Positions 44,733-47,434 of a stretch of 61,583 nucleotides of DNA are shown here, piece after piece; within the stretch, counting starts at the first letter, position 1; every line of letters starts with the position of its first letter. The stretch comes from Acidobacteriota bacterium (lineage in GTDB: Bacteria > Acidobacteriota > Terriglobia > Bryobacterales > Bryobacteraceae). The notes below the pieces were generated by a model, which saw only the letters and a list, made by a program, of their open reading frames with translations, made no database searches and was not told the origin of the DNA. The translations under genes and the position numbers were made by a program. The stretch lies in the NCBI GenBank assembly GCA_026394075.1, contig JAPKYX010000189.1, positions 1-61,583 of the forward strand, given 5' to 3'.

Positions 44733-45818
44733 ATGACCCGTCGCACCTTCTTCTCTTCAGCCCTGGCCGCCTCGGCCGTGGCCGCCGCGCCTCCGGCTGA
44801 CCCGTGGCCGCTGGGGATCAACACTTATTGCCTGCGCTTCCAACGCTGGAACGACCGGAAGCTGATCGACTGGTGTATCGAGCAGAAGCTGGACGCCATC
44901 TTCCTGCAGGATTCGCTCGACCCCGGTGTGATGGACCCCAAGCATTGGGCGGAGGTCCGGCAATGGACCCAGGAAGCGAAGCTCCGCGTCGAAACCGGCG
45001 GCGGCACCATCCTACCCAAGACCGCCGACGCCTATGCGTCCAACGTCGCGACGCTGCGCAAGAACATTGAGCGGGCAGCGGCCACCGGGTCGCCCATCGT
45101 GCGCGCACTGCTGGCCTCGGACCGGCGCGCCATGCCGCCCGGTCCAGTGGAAAAGCACATCGAGACCACGGTGAAGGTGCTGCGCGAAGTCCGCAGCCAG
45201 GTGATGGATGCCGGCGTCAAGATCGGCCTGGAGAACCACAAGGAGCTGCAAGCCTGGGAAACTCGCCAGGTGATCGAGACGGCAGGCAAGGAGTTTGTCG
45301 GCAGCTACCTCGACACCGGTAACCCCGTGTTCGTCTTTGAAGACCCGGCCACCACGATTGAGCATCTGGCCCCCCTGGCCGTTACCTTCCACCTGCGGGA
45401 CTCGGTGGTCTACGAGCACCCCGAAGGCATTGCCGTGCAGTGGGTGCCGCTGGGGGAGGGAACGTCAGACTTCAAGAAGTTGGTGGCGCGCGCCCGCGAA
45501 CTGATGCCGGCCGGTGTGCACATCTACTGCAAGCCGATCACGGCGCGGCCTCCGGTGGTCCTGCCGGTCACCACCACCGGCAAAGACGCTCGCGAGTGGT
45601 GGGACTTGTTCCCCCGCGCCCGCGCCAGCGAACTGGCCCAGTTCATCGCCCTGGCCAAACGGGGCCGCCCGTATGACAAACCGATGGTGGTGGAAGACTA
45701 CCCCGGTAGGCCTGAGGCGTATGTAGAGGCACTTAAGTATCAGCAGCTGGAACACATGACGCGGAGCCTGGATTACTGCCGCAAAACCCTAAACCTGGGC
45801 GTCCGCTGGCGCGGATAG
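44733..45818 (+). CDS. Tat-exported xylose-isomerase-like TIM barrel protein
   Basis: A 361-residue protein with a CAGGAG ribosome site and a twin-arginine signal (MTRRTFFSSALAASAVAAAP). The mature part is a sugar-phosphate isomerase/epimerase-type TIM barrel: GINTYCLRF, LDAIFLQDSLDP, VKIGLENHKELQAWET with a metal-site Glu, GSYLDTGNPVF, VTFHLRDSVVY and VEDYPGRPEAYV. Proteins of this family isomerise or epimerise sugars, and exported versions are frequent here. It follows the ceramidase-like gene by 33 bases and is followed by a strong hairpin. Confidence 0.85.
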   Translation: MTRRTFFSSALAASAVAAAPPADPWPLGINTYCLRFQRWNDRKLIDWCIEQKLDAIFLQDSLDPGVMDPKHWAEVRQWTQEAKLRVETGGGTILPKTADAYASNVATLRKNIERAAATGSPIVRALLASDRRAMPPGPVEKHIETTVKVLREVRSQVMDAGVKIGLENHKELQAWETRQVIETAGKEFVGSYLDTGNPVFVFEDPATTIEHLAPLAVTFHLRDSVVYEHPEGIAVQWVPLGEGTSDFKKLVARARELMPAGVHIYCKPITARPPVVLPVTTTGKDAREWWDLFPRARASELAQFIALAKRGRPYDKPMVVEDYPGRPEAYVEALKYQQLEHMTRSLDYCRKTLNLGVRWRG

Positions 45819-45851
45819 CGCCTTCCGGTACTAGCAATTGGACCGCCGTGT

Positions 45852-45880
45852 AGCCCCATGCGTCAGCTTGGGGCTTTTTC
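45852..45880 (+). terminator. Intrinsic terminator within the REP-like element
   Basis: The first half of the element, stem AGCCCCA/TGGGGCT followed directly by TTTTTC, has the form of a Rho-independent terminator and lies about 34 bases after the TIM-barrel gene. Confidence 0.6.
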
Positions 45881-45917
45881 GGGTACAGGAAGAAGCCCCA
45901 AGCTGACGCATGGGGCT
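45852..45917. repeat. Paired REP-like palindrome
   Basis: Two perfect 25-base inverted arms (45852-45876 and 45893-45917) flank a 16-base loop. Each arm is itself a hairpin: AGCCCCA and TGGGGCT pair around TGCGTCAGCT. Two inverted copies of a small hairpin unit is the layout of REP/BIME elements. The motif contains GCGTCAGC. No second copy was noticed in the window, so multiplicity in the genome is unknown. Confidence 0.7.
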
Positions 45918-46195
45918 GGTGCCTGCTTGGCCATGCTGCCGTAGGCAGATAACACTCTCTGAATCAATCAGATCAATGCCGTGTCGATCGGGCGGGCATC
46001 ATACCGGCCTGCCGTTGCTTCAGCCACTGCTTCCCGTCACCGACGGCTGCCTCCCGCTACCCTTAGCTCCACCTTACCCCCTACGGACTACAGTCTCCGG
46101 CATAGTACGAAGTGCCGTTTTGCCCTGGTACCACCCCGTACCAGCTCCTCAGAGTTTTCCCACCCCTGAACCGCAAACTGGTCTCAGGCGAACAC

Positions 46196-47434
46196 ATGGG
46201 AACCCTGGCACTGGCACTCACTCTGGCGATCGAAGCAACTGAGGTCCGCAGCCGCGCCGCCGGGCTGGTGGAAAACCTGGAAGCGAAGTTTCAACCCTTT
46301 GTTTTGAATGCTTCGACCTGCGGCACGGTAGCAGACGGAAACTCGGACGACACCCAGGCCCTACAGCGCTGCATCAACACCTTACCTGAGTACGCCACCC
46401 TCGACGGCGAAGGCCGTACCTACCTGGTCTCGGTTTTGAACCTGAAATCCCGGATGCGCCTCCGTAACTTCCGCCTGAGCAAGTTTGCCGGCACCGAGAA
46501 CATGACCTCGCCCGTCACCCTCGATGGCCGCACCGAGGCCAAGACCGATGTGATCGTCGAGAACGTCCAGGTGGCCGGCAATCGCCAGTTCGAAACCAAC
46601 TTGGTGACGCCGTCGGCTGAAGACGGCGGCCGCCACTGCTTCCGATTCGTCGGCCAACTGAACTTGATCGCCCTGCTGAACGTCAACGGTTCCTTCTGCG
46701 GCAGCGACGGTTTGCAACTGGGTGGCCACCACGCCACCACGTCCGACGCGCCGGAAGGGCTGGCGGTGCAGAACGTCGTGGTCCGCGATGCGGTCTTCAA
46801 TAGCAACCGCCGCGTGGGCATCGCCTTTGAGGGCGGCCACAACCTCTACTTCATCAACGTCGAGACCCGCTTCAACGGCCGCAAGCTGGACCCGGCCGCC
46901 ACCCCAACCCAGGGCAACTACTGCGCCCATGTCGACAACGCCTGCTTCGGCACCGGCGTCTGGACCGAGAATGACCACGACGCGGCGGGCGGCTCCTTCG
47001 ACAGCATCTACTTCGTCAACCTGAATTCCACCGCCAACTTCACCCGCGCCTTCTACGCCTACTCACAATCCGGCCCGAAAGTGATTGGCTTTCGCGTCAA
47101 GTCGAACCTAGTGATCCTGGAATCCACCCTGGACGCGGGCGCTGAGCCGGTGGCGGGCAACCCTATCGCCATCCAGTTCTCCTCCTCCTCGCCCGATGGC
47201 GCGGGTGCGGTCTACTCGGGTGTCGAGATCGGCCGCAGCACCATTCACGGCACGGTGACCGCCCGGTCGCTCGACGGCCTGATGCTGCGCGACAGCAAGG
47301 TCACCGCCTCACTGCTGGGCTTCGTCGAATACTTCGACCGCATAGACGTGCAGAACGTGGAACGTCGCGGCGAGTTCCTCTCCTCGCGGTGGCTGCGCCC
47401 CGATGGCACCGCCGGTGCGGTGGTCCGCTACTAA
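46196..47434 (+). CDS. Right-handed beta-helix (pectate-lyase-like) protein
   Basis: From the ATG at 46196 the product is 412 residues. It begins with a short hydrophobic stretch (MGTLALALTLAIEA) that is a poor signal peptide; an upstream in-frame ATG at 46112 gives no better one. The sequence shows a GTVADGNSDDTQALQRCINT segment typical of pectate-lyase-superfamily starts, then repeated beta-strand coils (DVIVENVQVAGNRQ, LIALLNVNGSFCGSDGLQLGG, NVVVRDAVFNSNRRVGIAFEGG, LYFINVETRFNGR). Polysaccharide binding or cleavage is the family theme. No catalytic set can be assigned. Confidence 0.75.
   Translation: MGTLALALTLAIEATEVRSRAAGLVENLEAKFQPFVLNASTCGTVADGNSDDTQALQRCINTLPEYATLDGEGRTYLVSVLNLKSRMRLRNFRLSKFAGTENMTSPVTLDGRTEAKTDVIVENVQVAGNRQFETNLVTPSAEDGGRHCFRFVGQLNLIALLNVNGSFCGSDGLQLGGHHATTSDAPEGLAVQNVVVRDAVFNSNRRVGIAFEGGHNLYFINVETRFNGRKLDPAATPTQGNYCAHVDNACFGTGVWTENDHDAAGGSFDSIYFVNLNSTANFTRAFYAYSQSGPKVIGFRVKSNLVILESTLDAGAEPVAGNPIAIQFSSSSPDGAGAVYSGVEIGRSTIHGTVTARSLDGLMLRDSKVTASLLGFVEYFDRIDVQNVERRGEFLSSRWLRPDGTAGAVVRY

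Follow-up and report, generated by a model that had tools for sequence, protein, structure and literature searches.

Why should a long and almost perfect palindrome stand close behind a gene, and does it serve that gene or belong to a repeat that lies there as a guest? This question is raised by positions 45852-45917 of the window, the whole stretch of 61,583 nt that we analysed, which is the entire contig C70 of genome G000. The upstream gene (44733-45818, plus strand) encodes a protein of 361 aa without an NCBIfam match, and its stop codon ends 33 nt ahead of the element. The downstream gene (46196-47434) runs in the same direction; its start, 278 nt past the element, is the one proposed by our codon-usage script, and the open reading frame list has 46112.

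Architecture of the dimer and of its family

The 66 bases of the element form one long hairpin with arms of 29 nt (45852-45880 and 45889-45917) and 8 nt between them. The arms are 97% complementary (28/29), and the sole mismatch falls on base 26; the outer 25 pairs are perfect, exactly as the earlier note had read them. The remaining three inverted repeats listed in the window are 72-90% complementary. When folded as RNA, the element gave a predicted energy of -67 kcal/mol against a mean of -35.1 for shuffled sequences (z -9.5), a value that none of the 200 shuffles equalled. The long hairpin contains two REP units. Unit 1, AGCCCCATGCGTCAGCTTGGGGCT, occupies 45852-45875 on the plus strand, with its GTCA tip at 45862-45865, and unit 2 (45894-45917, tip at 45904-45907) is the minus-strand reading of the same sequence. 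They are separated by an 18-nt spacer (45876-45893). Its two edges read TnTTC in the direction away from the adjoining unit, a feature conserved across the family. The complete element is a head-to-head dimer with the layout of a REPIN or BIME, that is, two inverted REPs and a short spacer in one hairpin. GCGTCAGC is present in each half and each half folds by itself, which agrees with the two nested hairpins in inverted orientation described before. With its conserved inner edge, the 24-nt unit extends to about 30 nt (AGCCCCATGCGTNAGCTTGGGGCTTnTTCG). The fold predicted for the unit as single-stranded DNA has a stem of 7 bp, followed by a T-T mismatch and then by two GC pairs, and is closed by a GTNA tip. 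Among DNA mini-hairpins, GCG-N-N-AGC stands out for its stability. Rfam at gathering scores gave no match within the window.

At up to 3 mismatches, the chance expectation of the 24-mer in the window is 0. At the same threshold, G000 contains 44 + 43 = 87 unit copies in about 50 places by our own grouping, against 0 in the reversed control, and the other two genomes of the genus contain 104 (G001) and 203 (G002). The REP-type repeat suspected in the earlier note, an idea that uniqueness in the genome would contradict, thus passes the count of copies in this genome and its relatives. In a draw of 41 genomes, the unit was present in all 3 genomes of its own genus and in 0/38 outside it. A scan of the phylum that tolerated at most 2 mismatches found one genome out of 396, the own genome, in a draw that holds no further genome of the genus. 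The matches listed in a scan of named genomes include the MAGs Bryobacteraceae RE-18aug17-11, which appears to correspond to G001, LacPavin_0920_WC90_MAG_63_15, which appears to correspond to G002, and palsa_290. Single near-identical cores of the unit occur in G566, G575 and G586, all from other genera, and phage and plasmid collections gave 0 matches. Copies of the repeat are thus dispersed behind the genes of a small number of related freshwater bacteria. The MAG palsa_290, named Acidobacteriaceae and examined in a single contig (PKVZ01000176), carries one unit pair (L175:6816-6880), beside two N.

The units are arranged in a highly regular manner. Among 116 close pairs, 106 are head-to-head, 7 and 3 are direct and none is tail-to-tail; 93/106 head-to-head pairs have a spacer of 17-20 nt. 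The consensus of 103 pairs is AGCCCCATGCGTNAGCTTGGGGCT, followed inward by TnTTCg; all four bases occur at its N, where pairing between the halves was not above shuffles. There is little covariation inside the family: none above shuffles within the single-unit stems, and a slight excess of pairing over shuffles in the stem columns of the long hairpin (37/2000 shuffles as high). Direct target duplication of 2-8 nt was likewise not above shuffles in 102 pairs; our flank scripts excluded seven G000 places (C272 twice, C278, C279, C289, C298 and C299). Outside the unit, solely a weak G-N-Y-Y precedes it, and the foot reads N-Y-Y-A ahead of GCCCC (G-N-Y-Y before AG), not the published class-3 foot CnGA. 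The GTAG (or GTGG) foot of the GTAG REP superfamily does not characterize the family either, since the 204 unit starts comprise 60 CCAG, 42 TCAG, 34 CTAG and 18 GTAG. As for the CGTC superfamily, the CGTC of our unit sits in the hairpin tip and not unpaired before the stem. Single units and direct triplets exist besides dimers. In three G000 triplets (L081:2498-2605, L087:2513-2616 and L094:6802-6908), two adjacent units point in the same direction, as if a half-dimer had been duplicated.

Placement behind genes

Over the three genomes, 102 elements could be scored against home-made, codon-usage based gene calls: 63 lie between convergent genes, 35 between tandem genes, 2 between divergent genes and 2 inside a gene. 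The count left aside 17 entries near a contig end (10 in G000, 7 in G002) and one without a called neighbour. The location between genes that is typical of REPs therefore applies to 100/102 elements. G000 contributes 22 convergent, 9 tandem and 1 inside a gene, and G002 26 convergent, 16 tandem, 2 divergent and 1 inside a gene. In 1.576 Mb of G001 (C1 and C2), all 25 elements are intergenic: 15 lie in convergent gaps, 10 in tandem ones and none in a divergent one. The share of 15/25 is far more than expected from convergent gaps that make up 17.6% of intergenic bases (P 2.5e-6). Such a placement is also expected from mere tolerance of insertions. The element is a REP dimer, REPIN/BIME-like, because it is multi-copy, head-to-head, extragenic and without detectable target duplication; the REP-type repeat proposed from the sequence is supported by this palindromic, extragenic family with its dimers in one orientation.

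Since comparing only element-bearing loci is biased to occupied sites, shared positions were sought on the 1.576 Mb of G001. G000, G002 and palsa_290 supplied 90 elements, of which 21 had both flanks matched in G001 and 15 were consistently mapped. The corresponding G001 site was occupied in 11 cases, and 4 were without an element. The site of the window copy is also occupied in G001. Three of the four element-free sites were aligned; all were ragged, and none was a clean empty site. Because 11/15 mapped sites are occupied and the aligned empty ones are ragged, positions appear mostly inherited, and we infer past transposition from the structure of the family.

The earlier note had also regarded the first half of the palindrome as an intrinsic terminator, reused as a transcription end. 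The structure expected of a terminator is only partly there: a GC-rich hairpin is followed by a T run on the plus strand (45875-45879, five T then C), and TTTTTC lies behind the first hairpin in both the window copy and its G001 counterpart. A consensus terminator scan of 45600-46200 reported none, with loops of 3-8 allowed and an internal mismatch that may hide one, and at least four T in the next five bases were found at 46/206 unit ends in the family; this weak terminator-like tail is mostly peculiar to the window copy. The case for a terminator is therefore weak. If the element were reused as a transcription end, its position 33 nt behind the stop would fit, but not the low frequency of T tails among the units. 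At the RNA level, a long hairpin that follows a stop codon may influence 3' ends.

Class-3 transposase genes and GTNA-tipped hairpins

The earlier note had suggested looking for a RAYT transposase. The PF01797 profile found one gene in G000, one in G002 and none in G001, and neither gene adjoins a window unit. Moreover, at up to 5 mismatches the window unit was present in 0/62 transposase locus entries, several of which overlap. A cognate RAYT flanked by the same REP, as known for REPINs and BIMEs, was thus not found at these loci, and the sole Y1 transposase gene of G000 is flanked by another repeat, with a related stem and a tip that is not GTNA. The gene of G002 is flanked on either side by GAGCCGCGCGCGTNAGCAAGCGGTC, in one and the same direction (L055:1285-1316 and 2000-2032, C59). 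This repeat, of GCCGC form, counts 57, 34 and 101 copies in G000, G001 and G002 and is present in 20/41 genomes; it carries the same tip GCGTNAGC and the same free base as the window unit, and differs in a compensated stem pair. The G000 gene lies at L049:190-1095 (C100), amid several GGCACTCCGCTCCATGCTGTCGCGGCTCGGCGTG-like repeats.

The proteins from G000, G002, G005 and G027 align over their length and contain the HVH and Y----Q motifs. Against the NCBIfam REP-transposase model, those of G000 and G002 score 36.8 and 31.9, for a cut-off of 80. We assign them to class 3 by motif, phylum and flanking hairpins, and not by the profile of PMC6006769 itself. A model built from the four proteins has matches in 58/121 genomes of the bacterial family, and none in G001. 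Repeats with a GCCCC stem and this tip occur in 19/200 genomes of that family and in 10/76 genera, in high number in four genera; the reversed control gave one match, in G590. In G099, one of 25 GCCCC-stem copies lies 210 nt from a class-3 gene.

The flanks of the class-3 genes were then compared with more distant sequence. Scanning 30 transposase loci for hairpins under a strict rule had given almost no matches, as 5 perfect pairs were demanded; listing the tip motif instead revealed the G002 and G005 repeats. The layout that we counted consists of a GTNA tip, two pairs, a mismatch and a GC stem, with compensated stems. This definition was derived here and is not a published one, and the window unit conforms to it. 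Of the 30 fetched loci, which are the best-scoring matches of the 58 genomes, 25 were used, five that were too short being dropped, with the locus of the own genome among them. Within 250 nt of the class-3 genes there are 28 such hairpins in 12.5 kb (2.24 per kb), at least 2 of which look like chance matches, against 7 in 62.5 kb beyond 250 nt (0.11 per kb) and a background of 0.10 per kb on C1 of G001. They are found near 15/25 class-3 loci, and 10/25 have none. A looser test with GCCSC-type hairpins gave 38 near the genes (20 with CGTNAG) against 33 farther away (2 with CGTNAG). In the G001 stretch, 29/330 GCGTNAGC sites lie in such a stem, and the highest permuted control octamer reaches 1.5%; 25 of the 29 belong to the window-unit family, which makes up most of this excess.

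Origin of the family and its neighbours

The relationship of the family to known systems can be drawn from several features. The accessible part of PMC6006769 gives as marks of class 3 TnpAY1 the Y----Q motif, a CnGA foot and the occurrence in Acidobacteria. It counts about 600 copies of class 3-flanking structures in Solibacter usitatus Ellin6076, and describes a small group, proposed as intermediate between the IS200/IS605 transposases and TnpAREP/RAYT, for whose behaviour it calls for experiments. The window family is similar to these structures as described there, being composed of multi-copy hairpins from Acidobacteria, and the Y----Q genes of the bacterial family have at their flanks hairpins with a GTNA tip and a mismatched stem, which is the tip and layout of the window unit. 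The difference is that the published CnGA foot is absent from the unit, which flanks none of the genes examined. With REPINs and BIMEs, in the accessible accounts of PMC6006769 and PMC3116915, the element shares two inverted units, a short spacer, the extragenic location and the many copies, but not a GTAG tag nor, among the loci examined, a cognate RAYT. The CGTC-tagged REPs, in what PMC3733652 makes available, are also mostly head-to-head dimers with no dedicated transposase; unlike in the window unit, where CGTC is in the tip, their CGTC is unpaired at one end, and they have an 8-9 bp stem and a 4-5 nt loop. The same accessible text describes the TIRYT/TIRtrons of Acidobacteria, Y1 transposase genes with flanking repeats, some of them multi-copy, whereas the window unit flanks no such gene here. 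As far as its accessible text goes, the Solibacter genome paper (PMC3174227) counts many short repeats and names no REP. In the parts of the literature on REPs and transposases of Acidobacteria at our disposal, we did not find the window unit described, PMC6006769 and PMC3733652 being the papers that bear on it.

The element appears to be a REP dimer that is orphaned and akin to the class-3 repeats, and we keep it outside any named REP superfamily because its foot is neither CnGA nor GTAG and none of the enzyme genes examined carries the unit. We consider it probable that this non-autonomous dimer was spread by an ancestral class-3 TnpAY1 and that the enzyme was later lost or changed, leaving the family orphaned. 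In the ancestor of the genus, such an enzyme (HuH, single-tyrosine) would have recognised the unit in its folded state and multiplied it as head-to-head pairs via single-stranded DNA, without target duplication. Copies would have persisted mainly behind genes, and once the matching enzyme was lost or changed, the orphan family would for the most part be passed on at its existing positions. After transcription, the dimer would form its long hairpin behind the stop codon and may have an incidental influence on 3' ends.

Other explanations have to be weighed against these data. The palindrome could be a MITE, the deletion product of a DDE transposon, with the 24-mer as terminal inverted repeat and a cut-and-paste enzyme as its motor. 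A short palindromic element with inverted ends and many copies has this appearance, and G001 is without any Y1 transposase match. We nevertheless judge a MITE improbable: the shuffle-level target duplication over 2-8 nt argues against it, as do the single units and direct triplets, and 40 G000 stretches contain no longer element sharing its ends, save at the junctions with an IS481-family element whose ends differ from the unit. A structural or RNA signal maintained by the host, such as a protein-binding site, an mRNA 3'-end stabiliser or a bidirectional terminator, which duplication multiplied and selection retained, would account for copies that nearly always follow genes and often lie in convergent gaps, for the 11/15 sites common with G001 and for a strongly conserved unit. 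Insertion tolerance would give the same placement, however, and the family lacks any clear compensatory change and mostly lacks T tails (46/206 unit ends). It is also restricted to one genus among the 41 genomes drawn; a few single near-identical units and the palsa_290 pair occur elsewhere. We therefore hold a host signal to be unlikely.

As for an ordinary intrinsic terminator of gene 44733-45818, independently arisen, the TTTTTC tail of the window copy and its G001 counterpart and the distance of 33 nt from the stop codon are what one would expect. The negative terminator scan speaks against it, and a repeat family of 87 copies already refutes it, which makes this explanation highly improbable. 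One could also imagine, as a tentative and rather doubtful extension of the class-3 relationship, that the GTNA-tipped hairpin is a recognition module of class-3 TnpAY1 whose stem and foot are exchangeable; the window family would then have drifted from every resident enzyme, and would now be stranded or else owe its movement to a class-3 enzyme that acts in trans and is tolerant towards the foot.

Past spread by a class-3 enzyme thus remains our preferred reading. According to the accessible part of PMC8266576, TnpAREP enzymes read the foot and the mismatch of the stem, and certain groups of them also the loop, which makes the differences of the window unit testable. The family-wide set provides a concrete hypothesis for class-3 recognition, with a fixed tip, compensated stems and a changing foot. 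Moreover, the three-species genus is a case of a REP family persisting without a visible enzyme of its own, and such persistence bears on the origin of orphan REPs such as the CGTC repeats.

At several places the units are abutted by an IS481-family element of 1.5 kb (NF033577, 227.8 bits for a cut-off of 224). All six left ends examined in G000, G001 and G002 lie about 4-5 nt from a unit, and 4/7 right ends are near one. In G000, units on both sides fit an insertion into the dimer spacer, and most left units of G001 and G002 have the opposite reading direction. Two left ends in G001 have one common variant unit, as do two right ends, and the sequence beyond differs. These mixed directions and variant units are compatible with target choice, insertion beside a unit or a unit travelling with the insertion sequence, all of which are possible. 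REP-targeting insertion sequences are likewise found against a repeat at several places; those in the accessible text of PMC1525189 come from Pseudomonas, Sinorhizobium and Neisseria, and ours is an acidobacterial IS481-family element. It was seen at L088:2575-4084 (G000:C197), L230 (C44), L222 (C67) and L227 (C5), and further at L219 (G002:C20) and at L221, L224, L231, L233 and L236 in G001. At many contig ends of G002 there are numerous matches of 70-88% to the ends of the IS481 element only, as if related insertion sequences were abundant there.
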